In this document: piece by piece, positions 39,881 through 48,331 of the stretch
Layout: every line of letters starts with the position of its first letter
Position numbering within the stretch: position 1 is the first letter of the stretch
From: Blastococcus litoris
Lineage (GTDB): Bacteria > Actinomycetota > Actinomycetes > Mycobacteriales > Geodermatophilaceae
NCBI RefSeq assembly: GCF_003075095.1
Contig: NZ_QCZF01000006.1
Location: 225,881-289,880 of the forward strand
Reading direction: 5' to 3'
Length of the DNA: 64,000 bases
Position numbers and translations under genes: made by a program
The notes under the pieces: model-generated
What the model was told of the DNA's origin: nothing
What the model saw: only the letters and a program-made list of their open reading frames with translations
Database searches by the model: none

Positions 39881-41164
39881 GTGGGTACGCGCGCCGGCAT
39901 CGTCGTCACGGGCACCGAGGTCCTGACCGGCCGGGTCGCTGACCGGAACGGGCCGTGGCTGGCCGAGCAGCTGCGTCTGCTCGGGGTGGACGTCGGCCAC
40001 GTCGTCGTCGTCGGCGACCGGCCGGAGGACCTGCGGGCAGCCCTGGCCTTCCTCGTCGGGACCGGCGTGGGCCTGGTGATCACCTCGGGCGGGCTCGGGC
40101 CCACGGCCGACGACCTGACGGCCCAGGTGGTGGGCGACGTCCAGGGCCGCCCCTCCGCCGTCGACACGGCGCTGGAGCAGCGGATCGCGGCGGTCGTCGA
40201 GCGGCTGATGGCGGGGCGCGGCTGGCGGGCCGACCCCGAGGCGACCGCGGCCGGCGTGCGCAAGCAGGCCCGGGTGCCCGCAGGGGCAACCGTGCTCGAG
40301 CCCGTCGGGACGGCCCCGGGCCTGGTGGTGCCGCCGGAGGAGGGGAGCGACGGGCCGACGGTGCTCGTCCTGCCGGGACCGCCGGGAGAGCTCCAGGGCA
40401 TGTGGCCTGCCGCCGTCGCGGCCGCCCCGGTGCGGGCGGCGCTGACGGGGGCCGAGGAGCTCCGCCAGGAGACCGTGCGCCTCTGGGGCACGCTCGAGGC
40501 CCAGCTGGCGGTGACGTTGCGGGAGCACGAGGACGAGATCGCCGGGCTCGAGGTCACCACCTGCCTGCGCGAGGGCGAGCTGGAGATCGTCACGCGGTTC
40601 CCGCCCTCGGCCCAGTCGGCGTACGACCGGCTGGAAGCGGTGCTGGCCGAGGAGTACGCCGGGACGTTGTTCTCCACCGGGCCCACGCTCGACGAGCTGG
40701 TGGCCCGCGGGTTCGCCGACCGCGGCTGGACCGTCGCGACGGGGGAGTCCTGCACCGGCGGTCTGCTGGCCGCGCGGCTGACCGAGCAGCCCGGCTCCTC
40801 GGCCTGGGTCCTCGGCGGGGTCACTGCCTACGCGAACGCGGCCAAGGAGCAGCTGCTCGACGTCCCGGCCGGTGTGCTCGCCGAGCACGGGGCGGTCAGC
40901 TCCGAGGTCGCCGTCGCCCTCGCGGAAGGGGCGCGGGCGCGGTTCGGCGCCGACATCGGCGTCGGCATCACGGGCGTCGCCGGGCCCGGAGGCGGTACCG
41001 GAGGCAAGCCGGTGGGCACGGTGCACCTGTGCGTCGCGGGCCCCGCCGGCCCAGAGCTGCGGGCACTGCGTCTGCCGGGTTCCCGGTCCGCCGTCCGGGA
41101 GCGGACGGTCACCCGGGCGATGCACCTGCTGCGCTGGACCCTCCTCGGCGGCCCGCCCGCCTGA
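39881..41164 (+). CDS. cinA: CinA-family protein (MoCF-like plus nicotinamide-nucleotide amidase domains)
   Basis: This is a full-length 427-residue CinA. The N-terminal COG1058 domain (about residues 1-255), related to molybdopterin-binding enzymes, starts with AGIVVTGTEVLTGRVADRNGPW and has the ITSGGLGPTADD motif. The C-terminal CinA domain (about 265-420) shows TGESCTGGLLAARLTE and GVTGYAN-like GGVTAYANAAK, typical of NMN deamidase. In the full-length form the N-terminal part hydrolyses ADP-ribose derivatives and the C-terminal part deamidates NMN to nicotinic acid mononucleotide, recycling NAD. The GTG start gives the family-typical N-terminus. Confidence 0.95.
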   Translation: MGTRAGIVVTGTEVLTGRVADRNGPWLAEQLRLLGVDVGHVVVVGDRPEDLRAALAFLVGTGVGLVITSGGLGPTADDLTAQVVGDVQGRPSAVDTALEQRIAAVVERLMAGRGWRADPEATAAGVRKQARVPAGATVLEPVGTAPGLVVPPEEGSDGPTVLVLPGPPGELQGMWPAAVAAAPVRAALTGAEELRQETVRLWGTLEAQLAVTLREHEDEIAGLEVTTCLREGELEIVTRFPPSAQSAYDRLEAVLAEEYAGTLFSTGPTLDELVARGFADRGWTVATGESCTGGLLAARLTEQPGSSAWVLGGVTAYANAAKEQLLDVPAGVLAEHGAVSSEVAVALAEGARARFGADIGVGITGVAGPGGGTGGKPVGTVHLCVAGPAGPELRALRLPGSRSAVRERTVTRAMHLLRWTLLGGPPA

Positions 41165-41173
41165 GCGGGCCGC
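41148..41173. terminator. Stem-loop at the end of cinA
   Basis: GCGGCCCGC (41148-41156) pairs with GCGGGCCGC (41165-41173) around an eight-base loop containing the cinA stop. It lies between cinA and the convergent small membrane protein gene. Confidence 0.6.
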
Positions 41174-41179
41174 CCGGCA

Positions 41180-41338
41180 TCACTGGTCGACGGTGACGTT
41201 GGTGAAGGGCAGCAGCGGCTCGACCTCGGGGAAGACGACGAACAGCAGCAGTGCGGCGACGGCGAGGACCAGCACCAGGGCGGCCGCAGCCTTGGCTGCG
41301 GTGCCGCCGGGCAGGTGCCGCCAGATCCAGGTGTACAT
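41180..41338 (-). CDS. Small single-helix membrane protein beside sortase
   Basis: A 52-residue protein begins MYTWIWRHLPG, continues with one hydrophobic helix (about residues 18-37) and ends in PFTNVTVDQ. The ATG and codon use are sound. Small proteins with a similar MYxWIWRxLPG start are, as I recall, common in actinobacteria, but their function is unknown. It lies 34 bases after the sortase gene in the same direction, so it is probably the last gene of the sortase transcript. Its orientation should place the short C-terminus outside. Confidence 0.8.
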   Translation of the reverse strand: MYTWIWRHLPGGTAAKAAAALVLVLAVAALLLFVVFPEVEPLLPFTNVTVDQ

Positions 41339-41372
41339 GCGGTCTCCGGTCGGGTCGGTCGAGGGTGGCGGG

Positions 41373-42218
41373 TCAGCCGTTCAACGCGGGCGGGCCGTCC
41401 GGCGCGGAGGCCTTGCTGACCGGGGCGCCGTCCAGCCGCGCGTGGATGACCAGCCGCTGGGCGGCGGAGTACTTGGGGTGGCAGGTGGTGAGGGTCAGGT
41501 AGGCGCCCGAGGTGGCCGTCCCGCCGCCCGGGGTCGGCGCGATGACGCCGACGTCGGAGGGCCGGACGATCTGCTGCCCGGGGATGCCGCTCGGGTCGGT
41601 GCCGAAGTCGCCCGTCGCCGGGTCGCCGAGGACCCGGTAGACGTACCAGTTCAGCTCCGTCTCGACGACGATCGCGTCGCCGGGCCGCATGGTGTCGAGG
41701 TCGAGGAACGGGGATCCGCGGCCGACCCGGTGGCCGGCCACGGCGAAGTTGCCCTCCTGGCCCGGCATGGCGGTGTCCAGGTAGTGGCCCGGACCCTGCG
41801 CCAGCTGCACCTGGGCGGTGCCCTCGACGATCACGCGGTCGAAGTCCTCGCCCAGGCGAGGGATGTGCAGGACGGCGAACGGCTCGCCCAGCCCGACGTC
41901 GATCGTCTCGGGGGTGGGCGCCGGGGCCGGTGAAGGGGCGGGGGCACCCGCGGAGGGGGCGGGTGCGGGCGCCTCGACGGTTGGCGCGTCGGCCCACTGG
42001 TCCTGGATCTGCTGGCTGAGCTGGTCCTGCTCGCGAGCCGCCAGGATGTCGGTCACGTAGAGCTCGTAGACGACGAACAGCAGAGCGACGAGCCCGAAGG
42101 TGATGAGCGTCTGGCCCACGCCGCGGATGACGGTGCGGACCAGGTCACCGGGTCGGCGGGGTTCCGGCGCGGACGGGGTGTCGCTCGGCGGGTTCTCGAC
42201 GTCGACTGCGCTGCTCAC
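41373..42218 (-). CDS. srtE: Class E sortase
   Basis: This 281-residue transpeptidase anchors LAxTG proteins to the cell wall. One N-terminal membrane helix (about residues 33-55) is followed by a Pro/Ala-rich linker and the sortase barrel (about 115-270). The catalytic residues are visible: His in FAVAGHRVG, Cys in LTTCHPKYS, and Arg in AAQRLVIHA. In Streptomyces, class E sortases recognise LAxTG. Two proteins with LAYTG sorting signals are encoded just upstream, transcribed in the same direction, so enzyme and substrates form one module. The GTG start yields the family-typical length. A stem-loop separates this gene from the substrate genes, so it may have its own promoter. Confidence 0.94.
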   Translation of the reverse strand: MSSAVDVENPPSDTPSAPEPRRPGDLVRTVIRGVGQTLITFGLVALLFVVYELYVTDILAAREQDQLSQQIQDQWADAPTVEAPAPAPSAGAPAPSPAPAPTPETIDVGLGEPFAVLHIPRLGEDFDRVIVEGTAQVQLAQGPGHYLDTAMPGQEGNFAVAGHRVGRGSPFLDLDTMRPGDAIVVETELNWYVYRVLGDPATGDFGTDPSGIPGQQIVRPSDVGVIAPTPGGGTATSGAYLTLTTCHPKYSAAQRLVIHARLDGAPVSKASAPDGPPALNG

Positions 42219-42253
42219 CGCGGGTCCTGTCTGCCGGAGGTAGGGCGGTGGAC

Positions 42254-42287
42254 GCCGCCTGCCGGGGACTGCTTCCCGGCAGGCGGC
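42254..42287 (-). terminator. Stem-loop after LAYTG protein 1
   Basis: A 13-pair perfect stem (GCCGCCTGCCGGG with CCCGGCAGGCGGC) with an eight-base loop lies 64 bases after the end of LAYTG protein 1 and before the sortase start. It should end or attenuate transcription between substrate and sortase. Confidence 0.75.
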
Positions 42288-42341
42288 GCCACCTGGAACG
42301 AGGTGGAGCCCGGCCCGCCGCCCTGGGTCGTCCGGGCGGCG

Positions 42342-43419
42342 GGCCGGTGGATCAGACCGCCGCGGTGGTGCTGCGGCGGCGGCCGGCCAGCGTGAGAGCG
42401 CCACCGGCGCCGAGGGCGATCAGGCCCAGGGCGAGGGGAGCGGTGGTCTCAGCGCCGGTGTAGGCCAGCTCGCCCTTGGGCTGGGCGTAGGTGTTCATCG
42501 GAGCTGCCCGGTGAGCGACCGGAGCGGCCTTGTGCGGCATGGGCGCCACAGCCGGCTTGGCGTGCTCGGGGCAGTCGGCCTCGTAGCCCGGCTTGTGGTG
42601 GTCGGCGTGCGGGTGGCCGTAGTCCTTGTCGCCACCGCCGATCGTCTGGTTCGCGTAGTTGGAACCAGTGGTGCCGGACTGGTTGATCTCGAGGCCCTCG
42701 ATCTTGATGAGGTACTCGCACTTGGTGCTCTGCTCGGTGCTCAGGACCATGGTCCCGCCGCAGTAGAAGGCAGCGTTCGAGAAGTCGATCACCACGCTGT
42801 TGTTGACCGAGCCGGTGGTCTGGTCGGGGGCGTTGATGATCGTGGTGCTGCCGTCGAGCAGGTTGAGCTGACCGGTGAGGTTGCCGTTCCCGGCCTCGGC
42901 GTCGTCGCCGCCGCCACCGTTGCTGTTGAGCGCCCGGGGGCCGTTGTTGTTGCCGGGCTTGCCCGGGTGCCAACCCTCGTCGCCCTCGGCCTCGGCGACC
43001 TGCACCGTCTCGTTGCTGTTGGACTGGCTGACGTGCTGGTCGGGCAGGTCGGACACCGTCTGGTCGGCGTGGTTCGAGCCGGTGGTGCCGGACTGGTTGA
43101 TGCTGACGTCCTCGATCTTCACCACGGCCGGGGCCGAGGGAAGGACGACCTCGACGCTGTTGGTGACCGAGCCCGTGGACTGGTCGGGCTTGTTGACGAT
43201 CGTGGTCGAGGTGTCGGCCGCGTTGACCTGCAGGGTGCCGTTGCCGTTGCCGGCGGCGGCGTCGTCGTGACCGGACTCGGCACCGGCGGTCTGGCTGGTG
43301 CCGTTGCTGTTGTCCTGGGCGACTTCGCCGCCGTCAGCGCTGGCCACCGCCTGACCGAGGAAGAAGATCCCCCCGGCCATACCGGCGACGGCCAGGCCGT
43401 TGCGCACAGTTCGATTCAT
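42342..43419 (-). repeat. Tandem gene duplication, copy 1
   Basis: This block and 43562-44627 encode paralogous LAYTG proteins. The first 243 bases (42342-42584 compared with 43562-43804) are identical, as is the signal-peptide end; the middle differs by substitutions and a net 12-base indel. The identical stretch includes ten bases beyond the stop codon. Confidence 0.9.
42352..43419 (-). CDS. LAYTG-anchored repeat surface protein 1
   Basis: This 355-residue secreted protein belongs to no family I recognise. Residues 1-28 are a signal peptide (cleavage likely after ASA). Two related units follow: unit 1 at about 33-121 and unit 2 at about 130-260. Each carries an NSN-rich lead, a DDAxAGNxN segment, STTIxNxPDQxTGSV, a hydrophobic strand ending in KIE, and INQSGTTGSNxAxQT. 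Unit 2 has an extra loop with two cysteines (C220, C234). A His-rich linker (about 268-305) precedes the sorting signal LAYTG (318-322), a hydrophobic helix and RRR. The ATG is preceded by AAAGGA. The neighbouring class E sortase is the expected anchoring enzyme. N/Q-rich repeats recall curlin or chaplin-like assembly, but neither signature is present. Confidence 0.88.
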   Translation of the reverse strand: MNRTVRNGLAVAGMAGGIFFLGQAVASADGGEVAQDNSNGTSQTAGAESGHDDAAAGNGNGTLQVNAADTSTTIVNKPDQSTGSVTNSVEVVLPSAPAVVKIEDVSINQSGTTGSNHADQTVSDLPDQHVSQSNSNETVQVAEAEGDEGWHPGKPGNNNGPRALNSNGGGGDDAEAGNGNLTGQLNLLDGSTTIINAPDQTTGSVNNSVVIDFSNAAFYCGGTMVLSTEQSTKCEYLIKIEGLEINQSGTTGSNYANQTIGGGDKDYGHPHADHHKPGYEADCPEHAKPAVAPMPHKAAPVAHRAAPMNTYAQPKGELAYTGAETTAPLALGLIALGAGGALTLAGRRRSTTAAV

Positions 43420-43530
43420 CGTGCGTGTCCTTTGCGAGTGTGCGCGCCACGATTGGGTAGGAAGTGACGCGCTGATCAGTGGGTGATGAGCGAGCGGTGC
43501 GGTCGGCACCGCGGTGCGTGCTGGAGGAGC

Positions 43531-43565
43531 GGGCCGGCCGCCCGGTTGCAGCCGGGCGGCCGGCC
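43531..43565 (-). terminator. Stem-loop after LAYTG protein 2
   Basis: GGCCGCCCGG (43535-43544) pairs with CCGGGCGGCC (43551-43560) around TTGCAG; after a one-base bulge, GGCC on each side extends the stem. It lies just downstream of LAYTG protein 2, in the position equivalent to the stem-loop after protein 1. Confidence 0.7.
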
Positions 43566-44627
43566 GGTGGATCAGACCGCCGCGGTGGTGCTGCGGCGGC
43601 GGCCGGCCAGCGTGAGAGCGCCACCGGCGCCGAGGGCGATCAGGCCCAGGGCGAGGGGAGCGGTGGTCTCAGCGCCGGTGTAGGCCAGCTCGCCCTTGGG
43701 CTGGGCGTAGGTGTTCATCGGAGCTGCCCGGTGAGCGACCGGAGCGGCCTTGTGCGGCATGGGCGCCACAGCCGGCTTGGCGTGCTCGGGGCAGTCGGCC
43801 TCGTGGCCCGGCTTGTGGTGGTCGGCGTGCGGGTGGCCGTAGTTGTTGTCGCCACCGCCGATCGTCTGGTTCGCGTAGTTGGAACCAGTGGTGCCGGACT
43901 GGTTGATCTCGAGGCCCTCGATCTTGATGAGGTACTCGCACTTGTTGCTCTGCTCGGAGGTCAGCGAGTAGAGCTCGTTGCCGCAGTAGAAGGCGGCGTT
44001 CGAGAAGTCGATCACCACGCTGTTGTTGACCGAGCCGGTGGTCTGGTCGGGGGCGTTGATGATCGTGGTGCTGCCGTCGAGCAGGTTGAGCTGACCGGTG
44101 AGGTTGATGTTGCCGGCCTCGGCGTCGTCACCGCCGCCACCGCCGCTGAACTTGTTCGGGCCGTTGTTGCCCGGGTGCCAGCCCTCGTCGCCCTCGGCCT
44201 CGGCGACCTGCTTGGTCTCGTTGCTGTTGGACTGGCTGACGTTCTGGTCGGGCAGGTCGGACACCGTCTGGTTGGCGTGGTTCGAGCCGGTGGTGCCGGA
44301 CTGGTTGATGCTGACGTCCTCGATCTTCACCACGGCCGGGGCCGAGGGGAGGATGACCTCGACGCTGTTGTCGACGTAGCCCGTGGACTGGTCGGGCTTG
44401 TTGACGATCGTGGTCGAGGTGTCGGCGACGTTCCCCTGCAGGGTGCCGTTGACGTTGCCGGCGGCGGCGTCGTCGTGACCGGACTCGGCACCGGCGGTCT
44501 GGCTGGTGCCGTTGCTGTTGTCCTGGGCGACTTCGCCGCCGTCAGCGCTGGCCACCGCCTGACCGAGGAAGAAGATCCCCCCGGCCATACCGGCGACGGC
44601 CAGGCCGTTGCGCACAGTTCGATTCAT
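43562..44627 (-). repeat. Tandem gene duplication, copy 2
   Basis: Second copy of the duplicated gene block described at 42342-43419. The offset between copies is 1220 bases at the 3' end of the genes and 1208 at the start codons. Confidence 0.9.
43572..44627 (-). CDS. LAYTG-anchored repeat surface protein 2
   Basis: The 351-residue protein is a close paralogue of the next gene on the left, with the same signal peptide, two internal units, His-rich linker and LAYTG sorting signal. The differences concentrate in the unit 1 to unit 2 linker (a shortened stretch, NNGPNKFSGGGGG) and the cysteine loop of unit 2 (CGNELYSLTSEQSNKCEY). The C-terminal 77 residues before the first nucleotide change are encoded by identical DNA. 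Same strand and 152 bases of spacing suggest separate or read-through transcripts. It is the presumed second substrate of the class E sortase. Confidence 0.88.
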   Translation of the reverse strand: MNRTVRNGLAVAGMAGGIFFLGQAVASADGGEVAQDNSNGTSQTAGAESGHDDAAAGNVNGTLQGNVADTSTTIVNKPDQSTGYVDNSVEVILPSAPAVVKIEDVSINQSGTTGSNHANQTVSDLPDQNVSQSNSNETKQVAEAEGDEGWHPGNNGPNKFSGGGGGDDAEAGNINLTGQLNLLDGSTTIINAPDQTTGSVNNSVVIDFSNAAFYCGNELYSLTSEQSNKCEYLIKIEGLEINQSGTTGSNYANQTIGGGDNNYGHPHADHHKPGHEADCPEHAKPAVAPMPHKAAPVAHRAAPMNTYAQPKGELAYTGAETTAPLALGLIALGAGGALTLAGRRRSTTAAV

Positions 44628-44798
44628 CTGAGTTCGTCCTTGTCGGATCGTGATCTGTGGGTGGGATGCGCGCACCAGGGCCATGGATGGGGCGCGCGGA
44701 TGTGCGGAACTGCTGGTGGATCGGGGCGGCTGCACGTGGTCGGTGATGTGCCCCCCGTGGCACACCTGAGGACAGGCGCAGGCGCTCGAGCGGCCGCG

Positions 44799-45893
44799 TC
44801 AGTCCGGGCGCGTGCCGGGGTCGGTCGCCGTGGTGGTGGGCGACCCCGTGGCCGGCGCGGTGAGGCCGGCGTCCTGCGATGCCAGGGAGAGGGAGAAGAA
44901 CGAGCCGAGGACGGCCGTCGCGGAGCCGGGAGCACCCGTCTGCGTGCCGCTGCCGGCCCCCTGCGTCCCGCAGCCGGCGCCACCGATCGCGGTGGCGGGG
45001 CCGGGGGTGACGGGGAGCACGGGGGCGGCCGGCTCGTCGGCGGGGGCCCCGCCGAGCAGGGTGACGACCTGCTCGGCCACGGGGCCGGCCGACGGCGCGG
45101 GCGAGGTGGGTGCCGTCGCCGGGGCGTCGGAACGGGCGGTGGCGGTGTCGTCGGAGGCGGACGTCGCGGTGGCTGCCGCGGTCGCGACGGGGGCGGTCCC
45201 CGAGGAGACGATCGCGGGGCTCGAGCAGACGGTGGGAGCCACGACCACCGGCGCCGCGGCCGGCGGGGCCGGTGCGACCGTCGTGGTCGTGGTGGTGCAC
45301 ACCGGCTTGGCGTCCTCGTCGCGCTCCGCGGAGGACGTCGTCGTGCACGTCGCCTGGGTGGAGCCCTCGGTGACGGTGGTCGTCCGGGTGACGGTCCCGT
45401 CGTCGGACGTCGTCCTCACCGTCGTCGTGCTCGTGCTCGTGCTCGTGGTGGAGCTGGTGCTCGTGCTCGAGCCGGCGCTGGTCGAGGAGGTGGCCTTCGC
45501 CTCAGCGCTGTCCGCGGTCGTCCCGGCACCGGTCGCGGTGGTGGCCGGAGCAGGGGTCGGGGTCGGCGACGGTGCGGTGGTGGACGTCTGCGACGTGTTC
45601 GTCTGCGAGGTGGACGACGTCGCGGTGACCGTGCTCGACGAGTTGGCGGAGTTGGAGCCGGACGTCGACGTCTGCGTGACGGTGACCCCCGAGGGCGCCT
45701 CCGAGCTCTGCTCCGGGGCGGAGTCGGCCGCCGCCGGTGCCGGCTCCTCGGCGTGTGCCGCGGTGTCGGTCGCGACGGCGATGCAGGCGTACGCGCCGGC
45801 CCCCAGGAAGCAGGCTGCCGCTGTGCGGCGGAGCCACGACCATCGCGCAGGCGACGGCGCACGGCCGTTCCTGATCGCAGTGGTCCCCGTCAT
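44799..45893 (-). CDS. Secreted Ser/Thr-rich low-complexity protein
   Basis: This 364-residue protein has a signal peptide (about residues 1-47, hydrophobic core CFLGAGAYACIAVAT, cleavage near AHA) and then a long Ser/Thr/Ala/Pro-rich region with stretches of alternating Ser-Thr. Two cysteine-containing segments (QATCTTTSS and KPVCTTTTT) could form a disulfide loop. There is no sorting signal. An early segment reads VTQTSTSGSNSANSSS, loosely like the INQSGTTGSN element of the neighbouring anchored proteins. Such composition fits an O-glycosylated or stalk-like secreted protein. It is the first gene of the minus-strand surface cluster, but a 171-base gap separates it from the next. The opposite-strand reading lacks a signal peptide and was rejected. 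Confidence 0.75.
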   Translation of the reverse strand: MTGTTAIRNGRAPSPARWSWLRRTAAACFLGAGAYACIAVATDTAAHAEEPAPAAADSAPEQSSEAPSGVTVTQTSTSGSNSANSSSTVTATSSTSQTNTSQTSTTAPSPTPTPAPATTATGAGTTADSAEAKATSSTSAGSSTSTSSTTSTSTSTTTVRTTSDDGTVTRTTTVTEGSTQATCTTTSSAERDEDAKPVCTTTTTTVAPAPPAAAPVVVAPTVCSSPAIVSSGTAPVATAAATATSASDDTATARSDAPATAPTSPAPSAGPVAEQVVTLLGGAPADEPAAPVLPVTPGPATAIGGAGCGTQGAGSGTQTGAPGSATAVLGSFFSLSLASQDAGLTAPATGSPTTTATDPGTRPD

Positions 45894-46027
45894 GGCGCGG
45901 ACGTTATGAACGAGTCCGTCTCGTGACCACCAGGTCGTGCACGATCCGGATTCGTGCGGCGTGTCACAGACGATCGCCCGACCGAGGGATTGCGGAGAGT
46001 GATCGAAACAAGGCCGTTACCGAATCT

Positions 46028-46044
46028 GGTATCACTCTGATACC
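46028..46044. promoter_or_regulatory. Perfect palindrome upstream of the toxin-antitoxin operon
   Basis: GGTATCA (46028-46034) and TGATACC (46038-46044) flank three bases, 44 bases before the antitoxin ATG. This is the size and position of an autoregulatory RHH operator. Confidence 0.65.
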
Positions 46045-46087
46045 TGGCCGCTGACAGGCTGGGAACCGCCGACGGGGTGGAGACGGC

Positions 46088-46300
46088 ATGGCGATGACGC
46101 TCCGGTTGAGCGCGGCGCAGAGCGACGCCCTGCGCCGTCGTGCGCTGACCGAGGGGGCCTCGATGCAGGACGTGGCCCGGCGTGCGGTGGAGGCGTACCT
46201 GCGGGCCCACGAGCCGGAGATCCCGATCGGCGTGGTCATCGACGAGGAGCTGTCCCGGTTCTCCGGGGCCGTCGAGCAGCTGGCCCGATGGCAGGACTGA
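46088..46300 (+). CDS. Ribbon-helix-helix antitoxin-like protein
   Basis: The 70-residue protein begins with a short beta strand (MTLRLSAAQ) followed by two helices (SDALRRRALTEGASMQDVARRAVEAYLRA), the layout of CopG/Arc-type ribbon-helix-helix DNA-binding domains. Residues about 45-70 form an acidic tail suited to wrap a toxin. The stop lies 13 bases inside the next gene, a Doc-like protein, so both are made together. A palindrome upstream supports autoregulation. The ATG is the first of two close ATG codons. Confidence 0.8.
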   Translation: MAMTLRLSAAQSDALRRRALTEGASMQDVARRAVEAYLRAHEPEIPIGVVIDEELSRFSGAVEQLARWQD

Positions 46301-46656
46301 GCGTCGAGGACCTCCTCGAGGTCGCGCGGCGCAGCGTCGGACCCGACATGCGGGTGCGCGACCTGGGCCTGCTCAGCGCCGCCCTCGCCCGCGTGGAGGC
46401 CCGGGCGCTCGGTCGCGACGTCTACCCGAGCGTCGAGGAGCAGGCGGCCGCGCTGCTCCACTCCCTCGCCACGACCGCACCGCTCGTGCGCGGCAACCGG
46501 CCCTTCGCCTGGGCGGCCACGGCGGTGTACCTGGCGCGGCGCGGGCGACCCTGCACGCTCACCGACGCCCAGGCGGTCGGGCTGGTGACCGACGTCCTGA
46601 CCGGCCGCGTCGAGGCGGTGGAGTCCATCGCCGAGCGGCTCCGGGGGACCGCCTGA
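46288..46656 (+). CDS. Doc/Fic-like toxin with degenerate active site
   Basis: The 122-residue protein has the layout of Doc toxins: VRDLGLLSAALAR, a D-x-YPSVEEQAAALLHSLA helix and the AWAATAVYLARRG helix. In Doc the Fic motif is HPFxDGNKR; here the segment reads TAPLVRGNRP, so the catalytic His, the Asp and the Lys-Arg pair are replaced by Ala, Arg and Arg-Pro. Phosphotransfer or AMP transfer by the standard mechanism is therefore unlikely. The protein may be an inactive relic or a binding-only partner that tunes the antitoxin. It overlaps the antitoxin gene by 13 bases. Third-position base use is normal, which argues against a fresh pseudogene. Confidence 0.75.
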   Translation: MAGLSVEDLLEVARRSVGPDMRVRDLGLLSAALARVEARALGRDVYPSVEEQAAALLHSLATTAPLVRGNRPFAWAATAVYLARRGRPCTLTDAQAVGLVTDVLTGRVEAVESIAERLRGTA

Positions 46657-46711: not shown

Positions 46712-48331
46712 ATGAGCGCGACGCACGAGGTCACCAACCAGGTCCCGCCCCTGGTCGGTCACGACCCGATCGCCGGTGACGCGGTACTCGCCGAGGCCTG
46801 CATGCGGCACGCGGACGCCGCGACGCTCGACTCGCTGGCAGCGCTGGGCCGGCTCGCCGGCAGCGAGCAGGCCCAGGAGTGGGGGCGGCTGGCCAACGAG
46901 AACCCCCCGCGGCTGCGGACCCACGACCGGTACGGCCACCGCGTCGACGAGGTGGAGTTCCACCCCTCCTGGCACGAGCTCATGCGCACCGCCGTGGAGA
47001 ACGGGCTGGCCGGGGCGCCGTGGGTGGACGCGTCGCCGCACGCCCACGTCCGCCGCGCCGTCGGGTACTTCGGGTGGACGCAGAACGAGATGGGCCACGG
47101 CTGCCCGGTGACCATGACCTACGCCGTCGTCCCCGCACTGCGGCGCACGCCCGAGCTGGCCGCGCGGTACGAGCCCGGTCTCACCGCGCGCGCCTACCAG
47201 TTCGGCCTGGCCGAGCCGACGGGCAAGCGCGGCCTCGTCGCCGGCATGGGCATGACCGAGAAGCAGGGCGGTTCGGACGTCCGCGCGAACACCACGCGCG
47301 CGGTCGGCCAGCCCGACGGGTCCTACCGGCTGACCGGCCACAAGTGGTTCACCTCGGCGCCGATGAGCGACCTGTTCCTCGTGCTCGCCCAGCTCGACGA
47401 GGGGGTCTCCTGCTTCGTCGTCCCGCGCGTGCTCCCCGACGGCAGCCGCAACGTGTTCCACGTGCAACGTCTCAAGGACAAGCTCGGCGACCGGTCCAAC
47501 GCCTCGAGCGAGGTGGAGTTCGAGGGGACGGCGGCCTGGCTGGTCGGCGAGCCGGGCCGGGGGGTCCCCGCGATCATCGAGATGGTCAACATGACCCGCC
47601 TGGACTGCGTCCTCGGGTCGGCCGCGACGGTGCGGGCCGCGCTCACCCAGGCGGTGCACCACGCCCGGCACCGCCGGGCCTTCGGCGCGCTCCTGGCCGA
47701 CCAGCCGCTCATGCAGAACGTGCTGGCCGACCTTGCGGTCGAGAGCGAGGCGGCCACGGCGCTGGCCGTCCGGCTGGCGGCCGCCGTGGACGCGGGTGAG
47801 CAGGCCTTCCTCCGGCTGGCCGGCGCCGCTGCGAAGTTCTGGGTCTGCAAGCGCACGCCGGGCGTGGTCGCCGAGGCGATGGAGGTGCTCGGCGGCAACG
47901 GCTACGTGGAGGACTCCGGCCTGCCCCGGCTCTACCGGCAGTCGCCGCTGAACTCCATCTGGGAGGGGTCGGGCAACGTGATCGCCCTGGACGTGCTGCG
48001 CGCGATGGGGCGCTCGTCCGACACGCTCGCCGCGGTCAGCGCCGAGATCGAGCTGGCCCGCGGGGCCGACAGCCGGTTCGACGACGCGGTGAAGCGCTTG
48101 CACGCCGAGCTCGGCGACCCCGACCAGCTGCCCTTCCGGGCGCGCCGGATCGCCGGTCTCCTGGCGCTGTGCCTCCAGGGCTCGTTGCTCCTGCGCTTTG
48201 CGCCGGCGGCCGTCGCGGACGCCTTCTGCGCCTCTCGCCTGGGCCTTTCCGGAGGAGGGGCGCTGGGCATGCTCCCGGCGTCGGCGGCCGTCGGCGCGAT
48301 CGTCGAGAGAGCCGCGATCGCCCCTGTCTGA
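46712..48331 (+). CDS. AidB-like acyl-CoA dehydrogenase
   Basis: The 539-residue flavoprotein is longer than classical acyl-CoA dehydrogenases and matches the AidB group, involved in alkylation resistance in E. coli. Visible features are GMTEKQGGSDVRANTT and GHKWFTSAPMSD at the FAD site, KDKLGDRSNASSEVEF, and the C-terminal NSIWEGSGNV, where the usual catalytic Glu region is present. A C-terminal extension of about 110 residues beyond the dehydrogenase core is typical of AidB. The ATG giving MSATHEV was chosen; a GTG nine bases upstream is possible. It appears to be a single gene. Confidence 0.92.
   Translation: MSATHEVTNQVPPLVGHDPIAGDAVLAEACMRHADAATLDSLAALGRLAGSEQAQEWGRLANENPPRLRTHDRYGHRVDEVEFHPSWHELMRTAVENGLAGAPWVDASPHAHVRRAVGYFGWTQNEMGHGCPVTMTYAVVPALRRTPELAARYEPGLTARAYQFGLAEPTGKRGLVAGMGMTEKQGGSDVRANTTRAVGQPDGSYRLTGHKWFTSAPMSDLFLVLAQLDEGVSCFVVPRVLPDGSRNVFHVQRLKDKLGDRSNASSEVEFEGTAAWLVGEPGRGVPAIIEMVNMTRLDCVLGSAATVRAALTQAVHHARHRRAFGALLADQPLMQNVLADLAVESEAATALAVRLAAAVDAGEQAFLRLAGAAAKFWVCKRTPGVVAEAMEVLGGNGYVEDSGLPRLYRQSPLNSIWEGSGNVIALDVLRAMGRSSDTLAAVSAEIELARGADSRFDDAVKRLHAELGDPDQLPFRARRIAGLLALCLQGSLLLRFAPAAVADAFCASRLGLSGGGALGMLPASAAVGAIVERAAIAPV

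Follow-up and report, generated by a model that had tools for sequence, protein, structure and literature searches.

A minus-strand block of five genes (positions 41180-45893) in a 64,000-nucleotide (nt) stretch of the Blastococcus litoris genome, hereafter the window, encodes a class E sortase beside two closely similar secreted proteins that carry the motif LAYTG near their C-terminus. We consider it likely, with a probability of roughly 60%, that this block is a compact, exchangeable surface-coat cassette in which a coat of LAYTG proteins is anchored by the cassette's own sortase. The first-pass annotation had described a block of five genes at this place, and all five open reading frames (ORFs) are present there. 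In transcript order, they encode a Ser/Thr-rich protein, LAYTG-B, LAYTG-A, the class E sortase, and a 52-amino-acid (aa) membrane protein. The genome around the window is 4.63 Mb in size.

The sortase and the LAYTG proteins

The sortase (41373-42218, minus strand; 281 aa from the preferred GTG start) scores 248.8 bits against the NCBIfam model class_E_sortase NF033747 (cut-off 160) and 103.3 bits against Pfam Sortase (cut-off 26.6). Its GHY, AGHR, and TTC(x8)R blocks align with Streptomyces coelicolor SrtE1 (5CUW) at Tyr, His, Cys, and Arg. The class assignment made in the first pass is well founded on both the model score and these conserved blocks. The aligned Tyr is presumably Tyr229 of SrtE1, a position obtained by counting residues back to the His; the numbering of that His and its role in catalysis are assumed. 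The consulted parts of the SrtE1 report name Tyr229, Cys320, and Arg329, and propose that the Ala of LAXTG is recognized by a conserved Tyr located in the beta3/beta4 loop (PMC5148588). Since the active-site residues are conserved, the LAYTG proteins are very likely anchored to the cell wall by the cassette sortase. The strongly conserved signal peptide would direct their export, and the C-terminal span with the RRR tail would keep them in the membrane. The sortase, encoded just downstream, would then cut LAYTG between T and G and join the protein to the wall.

LAYTG-A (42352-43419, 355 aa) and LAYTG-B (43572-44627, 351 aa), both on the minus strand, are 93% identical and share their signal peptide and their final residues, in keeping with the duplication noted in the first pass. 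The order of signal peptide, LAxTG, membrane span, and basic tail (RRR), as read from the sequences, is conserved in relatives. The middle of each protein is made up of two repeats, 94 and 130-134 residues long (cut manually), and a His/Pro-rich linker after them. The repeats are rich in Gly, Asn, Ala, Ser, and Thr. Their earlier description as Asn/Gln-rich holds for Asn (9-11%) and fails for Gln (5%). An alignment of 10 proteins shows two invariant Cys in the last repeat. Between signal peptide and anchor, 27 relatives are hydrophilic and acidic, with a grand average of hydropathy (GRAVY) of -0.29 to -0.87 and an isoelectric point of 4.1-6.1. On the cell surface, the Gly/Asn/Ser/Thr/Asp-rich repeats would stand out as an acidic, hydrophilic brush.

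No fitting Pfam family was found for the window proteins P0001-P0003 at E <= 1. Among the 27 relatives, no family covers the repeats; weak matches at E <= 10 are scattered over 23 families, of which the commonest, DUF6264, is seen in seven members (best E 0.0016). Neither chaplin nor curlin matches any of the 27 in Pfam at E <= 10, a threshold at which the negatives are limited by the HMMER filters, which drop most matches above E 0.1. Chaplin, curlin, and other Pfam domains are ruled out by these searches as the identity of the repeats, which agrees with the first-pass view that the proteins lack a chaplin domain and that their repeats belong to no recognized family. A profile of 27 LAYTG proteins, run against 394 genomes of the class (only two of them from this family), found full-length matches in the own genome alone, and two other genomes match over the linker-anchor end only. 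Plasmid-borne relatives were dismissed, as the second repeat of LAYTG-B, the sole piece tried, gave no match.

The first pass also raised the idea of a cell-surface layer or fiber. Self-assembly of the LAYTG proteins into amyloid-like or fibrous structures, in the manner of chaplins or curli, would be favored by the Asn/Gly-rich tandem repeats and by the two invariant Cys. Strands in a poor AlphaFold model and a weak hydrophobic alternation (lag-2 autocorrelation exceeding that of shuffles in 24 of 27 relatives, with z > 2 in only six) point the same way. However, we consider it unlikely, given the absence of chaplin and curlin matches just described, the lack of confident strands, and GRAVY values unlike those of the hydrophobic long chaplins and of CwpA and CwpB in the parts consulted of PMC13251363. 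For LAYTG-B, modeled with 10 rows, the mean predicted local distance difference test (pLDDT) score is 35.7; a single repeat of the relative in locus L041, modeled with 23 rows, reaches 47.0. Since both AlphaFold models are untrustworthy, no fold comparison or structural claim is made, and the layer or fiber idea is left unsupported.

Wall-anchored repeat proteins are often adhesins. A role of the LAYTG proteins as adhesins or receptors for a specific ligand, such as a mineral, a polysaccharide, or other cells, would be consistent with their variable middle, which would suit a change of ligand. Such a role seems improbable, however, as the Pfam searches found no known binding domain and the sequence is of low complexity. 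The linker invites a further proposal, namely metal binding in the wall, comparable to that of ZnuG, a zinc-binding protein of Corynebacterium diphtheriae with a sortase signal, according to the consulted parts of PMC12445094. In the last 85 residues before the anchor, the two window proteins have 8 and 7 His, and relatives have up to 13. Across the 26 of 27 proteins with a recognized anchor, however, the number ranges from 0 to 13, with 0 or 1 in L050, L059, and L061. This rules out metal binding as a family-wide function, and the proposal as a whole is very improbable. The His-rich linker of the first pass is thus real in the window proteins and is not a conserved trait.

Distribution, chromosomal site, and evolution of the cassette

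A survey of co-occurrence found sortase and LAxTG genes together, as a cassette, in 20 of 112 genomes of the family: 10 of 16 in the own genus, 10 of 23 in a second genus, and none of 73 in other genera. In 19 of these genomes, the cassette sortase scores 381-607 bits against that of the window, whereas all other sortases in the 112 genomes reach at most 359 bits. The twentieth (G002) has a LAYTG gene and, at the end of a contig, a 91-bit fragment of the sortase. Five of the 20 (the window, L046, L047, L048, and L052) carry two or three LAxTG genes, and G024 has a further copy of the region (L089) at the end of a second contig. Genomes G080 and G098, both from other genera, were rejected as holding relatives, since the match covers the first 53-67 residues only; pattern expressions in any frame of their loci (L021 and L035) gave no such signal-peptide motif, LAxTG tail, or sortase signature. 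Genes in the fetched loci were called with a crude custom ORF caller that misses or mis-strands some genes. Among its errors, it called a frame antisense to the Ser/Thr-rich gene in L047 and missed this gene in L051; these cases were re-read afterwards.

All 20 cassettes lie at one site, with cinA, an acyl-CoA dehydrogenase gene, or both on the same contig; the site spans two contigs in G037, and the contig ends inside the region in G033 and G016. In the window, a frame in the opposite orientation, which we take by eye to be cinA, ends at 41164. On the other side, a small gene pair (46088-46656) is followed by what we likewise recognize, by eye, as the dehydrogenase gene (46712-48331). Of 20 genomes without the cassette that were tried, 17 had a match to the dehydrogenase and 15 were fetched; in these 15, the same stretch contains both cinA and the dehydrogenase gene, and no sortase or LAxTG gene was called between them. 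One of these, L103, has a 936-aa ORF that fills the site. What the first pass called a self-contained module, with the sortase beside its substrates, is a conserved cassette that is absent as a block from these 15 genomes.

The small gene pair encodes 70 and 122 aa, occurs beside the cassette also in L045, L049, L050, and L053, and resembles, by our presumption, an antitoxin with a Doc-like toxin. Two other repeat proteins occupy the slot between cinA and the dehydrogenase gene in L090 (444-3481; G026:C38:79000-88000), another of the 15 loci without the cassette, where they are oriented like the dehydrogenase gene, the opposite of the cassette. The first, of 379 aa, is Asn/Gln/Ser-rich with near-identical repeats (SGDQSNEQSNNNVAASEASNEN...), has no LAxTG, and gave no Pfam match at E <= 1. 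The second, of 577 aa, is Ser/Thr/Ala-rich with two hydrophobic ends.

The genes of the region differ in how far they have diverged. In best blastp segments of whole genes, with contig-end fragments left aside, identity to the window is 26-42% for the LAYTG proteins, 65-82% for the sortase, and 85-90% for the dehydrogenase. The tandem LAYTG copies mostly appear to evolve in concert. They are closer to each other than to the copies of any other genome in 11 of 13 cases, with a similarity of 0.93 versus 0.43 in the window and 0.98 versus 0.55 in L052; in L046, an exception, the tandem copies have 0.72 to each other and 0.72 and 0.74 to other genomes. Between LAYTG-A and LAYTG-B, dS is 0.048 and dN 0.045 (dN/dS 0.94). 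The 12 synonymous differences are all confined to codons 61-240, which hold only about half of the synonymous sites, a clustering with a chance of about 2 in 10,000 by our own arithmetic under an even spread. This confinement suggests gene conversion at both ends of the pair, with the middle free to change.

The sortase tree conflicts with that of the flanking dehydrogenase. The dehydrogenase tree (16 rows) splits the two genera with a support of 92, below the tool's mark of 95, whereas the sortase tree (18 rows of the 20 genomes) needs three changes of genus. Both were made with a quick method, and on the quick tree an approximately unbiased (AU) test rejects a single clade for the sortases of the own genus (p 0.010). 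From this conflict, the cassettes were probably exchanged between genera, over a partly vertical history. Ancient duplication followed by loss is another possible cause. Taken with the tandem duplication and gene conversion, cassette exchange between genera would reshuffle the diversifying repeats, a pattern to be expected where a surface layer is exposed to phages, predators, or competitors.

Companion genes and leader elements

The first gene of the cassette encodes a Ser/Thr/Ala/Pro-rich secreted or membrane-tethered protein (44799-45893, minus strand; 364 aa) with a hydrophobic stretch at the N-terminus and a conserved C-terminus (...DPGTRPD in the window); it has no LAxTG. In each of the 20 P1-bearing loci (of 21 sources, from 20 genomes), an ORF ending in ..PD stops 31-37 nt upstream of P1, the leader box described below; the contig of L046 covers just some 40 codons of this ORF. 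The Ser/Thr-rich gene is therefore a member of the cassette wherever the upstream DNA is present. Its product is probably mucin-like and a second component of the envelope.

The 52-aa protein (41180-41338, minus strand; an ORF with one hydrophobic span) lies next to the sortase and is a widespread sortase neighbor across the class. Relatives at E <= 0.001 were found in 218 of the 394 class genomes. Among the best 30 loci, a match to the window's sortase is located within the locus in 29, and in 25 the sortase lies directly upstream on the same strand. In L116, L120, L131, and L134, the sortase match is on the other side and more than 1 kb away, and two of these four matches are short. In the cassettes themselves the gene is optional. 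L046 and L047 have no room for it, and the contig of L056 ends before its position. Where present, the protein probably assists the sortase. The searched parts of the literature on sortases and small membrane proteins gave no mention of it. In L054, L055, and L060, a 127-aa protein (MTTTTLHATGP...PAEVWERYR) replaces the 52-aa gene between sortase and cinA, and similar proteins of 127-133 aa are located between cinA and the dehydrogenase gene where the cassette is absent, in L094, L100, L101, L102, and L103.

Most LAYTG genes are preceded by a hairpin, P2. In 18 of 21 leaders its 3' end is 20-24 nt from the start codon, and in the remaining three it is 40-55 nt away. These 21 were counted from 28 candidates, a selection that favors the hairpin. 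L046:4839-4869, L047:9666-9721, and L058 were dropped, the scan having picked another or a truncated hairpin, and the alignment also leaves aside L047:8401-8443, L059, L061, and the near-copy L089. In the alignment (21 leaders, 19 distinct), 93.5% of cells pair, and four of nine pairs change on both sides, a number reached by 12 of 500 shuffles. Neither the paired percentage nor the covariation score was reached by any of the 500, and slid controls pair at 11-66%. In the window, the hairpin upstream of LAYTG-A (43438-43476, minus strand) has a z of -5.16, and the variant upstream of LAYTG-B (44664-44701, minus strand) is weak on its own (z -1.89, equaled by 10 of 200 shuffles).

The second element, the near-invariant P1 box GGTGTGCCACGGGGGGCACATCAC, occurs once per cassette and only upstream of the first LAYTG gene, 114-186 nt from its start in the 18 leaders measured. 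In the window, the box and the stretch up to GCCGCCCC after it lie at 44723-44766 (minus strand), and this is the one site in the own genome at <= 3 mismatches. Among the 112 family genomes, 17 sites at <= 2 mismatches were found in 16 genomes, all at the cassette by position; two more with three mismatches lie elsewhere, and a reversed control pattern gave three sites. Variants of the box are present in the cassette genomes of L048, L052, and L057, and the contig of L058 ends first. A looser 13-base form occurs once in L102, from a genome without the cassette.

Outside the family, the 394 class genomes hold no P1 site with 0 or 1 mismatch apart from that of the own genome. With two mismatches, 12 sites are found in 11 genomes (reversed control 0). 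Seven of the 12 are one 23-mer. For the six of these examined as loci, the site falls in each case within a single long open frame that reads YEVHHGVRITDAAL or almost that, which identifies the 23-mer, by its reading frame, as a coding match.

P1 may function either in the RNA or as an operator in the DNA. As a hairpin, 100% of cells pair in an alignment of 18 of 19 leaders, from which the near-copy L089 was left out and which L046 never entered, its first gene start being masked. Six of eight pairs never vary and one changes on both sides, one sequence having U-G in place of U-A or C-G, and the pairing and covariation together were equaled by 14 of 500 shuffles. Taken by itself, the 68-nt P1 stretch of the window has no better fold than shuffles do (z -0.29), and its preferred pairing is an alternative one, B (CGGGG with CCCCG). 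Covariation gives B no support: 97.2% of it pairs, but no pair changes on both sides. Rfam 15 gave no match at E <= 1 in 41000-46300, which excludes a known Rfam element as the leader, and a search for a sigma-70-like promoter found none (0.1 expected).

Hairpins also follow both LAYTG genes on the minus strand. That after LAYTG-B (43532-43565) folds at -37.3 kcal/mol over the stretch 43525-43570 (z -5.17), and that after LAYTG-A (42310-42347), terminator- or processing-like but with no U-run, at -39.8 kcal/mol over 42305-42352 (z -5.31); none of 200 shuffles was as good in either case. The hairpin leader and these strong closing hairpins on the LAYTG messages would allow an excess of substrate over sortase. 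On the plus strand, terminator-like sites with the stem CGGCACCGGC and a T-rich tail are found at 43278-43303 and 44486-44511, opposite the 5' part of both LAYTG genes, and may be a chance product of the coding sequence.

The site and the leader together allow another, rather doubtful, reading. The fixed slot between cinA and the dehydrogenase gene would be a surface-identity island, in which whole, fast-diversifying coats are swapped by homologous recombination in the flanks and expression is controlled by a structured RNA leader, with P1 taking two mutually exclusive foldings and P2 standing before most coat genes. Because an unrelated Asn/Gln-rich repeat pair lies in the same slot in L090, the slot itself, as in capsule loci, would be the conserved entity.

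Known systems and the proposed coat

The proposed exchangeable, sortase-anchored coat cassette is a variant of an already known kind of locus, in which a sortase is encoded with its substrates. According to the consulted parts of the sources cited in this paragraph, SrtE1 and SrtE2 of S. coelicolor likewise serve wall-attached LAXTG substrates, the long chaplins ChpA-C (PMC5148588). The Cys pairs in the LAYTG repeats recall those of chaplins (PMC13251363). However, the LAYTG proteins are hydrophilic, have no chaplin domain, and are encoded in one cassette with their sortase. Non-chaplin substrates of class E sortases are also known, namely SspA, CwpA, and CwpB of Actinoplanes missouriensis, the nearest case in the literature searched (PMC13251363, PMC13293333). 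SspA is predicted to be disordered (PMC13293333), and for the LAYTG proteins no fold could be predicted. CwpA and CwpB are hydrophobic, in contrast to the LAYTG proteins, and the five sortase genes of A. missouriensis lie at separate loci, in contrast to the cassette (PMC13251363). Neither tandem copies nor a leader element was found in the text examined on that system.

A similar arrangement is found in the own genome, where a second LAxTG module (L062:4685-8622, G000:C1) likewise has two LAxTG genes, a class E sortase, and a 52-aa gene in a row. Unlike the LAYTG repeats, its substrates are Gly-rich (the LAATG protein, 468 aa) and fibronectin III-like (the LANTG protein, 389 aa). An LPNTG protein with a PKD domain adjoins another class E sortase (L064:6264-8014, G000:C6).

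Several points weigh against the coat cassette as we describe it. Four class E sortases in the genome exceed the cut-off, the cassette enzyme included. Because the three others could serve LAYTG substrates, the dedicated anchoring claimed in the first pass is unproven. The NCBIfam anchor models NF058582, NF058583, and TIGR01167 score the window tails below their cut-offs (19.3 of 27, 17.3-18.8 of 65, and 14.4 of 15.9 bits, respectively), although at E <= 0.1 NF058583, NF058582, and TIGR01167 match 24, 23, and 9 of the 27 relatives (best E 1.1e-6, with 24 matched by the LAXTG_small_WW model). The motif is LAYTR in one relative (L061), and a recognized anchor is missing from one tandem copy (L052:10657). 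As neither AlphaFold model is usable, the brush is read from composition. The dN/dS near 1, from one pair, may reflect relaxed constraint rather than diversifying selection. Regarding exchange, the well-supported branches of the sortase tree taken alone are compatible with one origin, and sortase and flank distances correlate weakly (Spearman 0.20-0.37, with 1 to 15 of 1000 permutations as high). Furthermore, the 52-aa gene was called in only 10 of the 20 cassettes.

The anchoring chemistry is already known. The searched parts of the literature on class E sortases, Blastococcus, and Geodermatophilaceae gave no description of the LAYTG proteins, their likely exchange between relatives, or the leader, which all appear to be undescribed there. 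To our knowledge, little has been reported on class E sortase display outside Streptomyces and Actinoplanes. Geodermatophilaceae are known for life on stone and in dry soil, and the cassette offers a small, testable set of enzyme and substrates in this family, together with a candidate RNA leader and the gene of a small membrane protein that accompanies sortases across the class. Should coats really be swapped, free-living actinobacteria would have a protein equivalent of the exchange of capsule loci.

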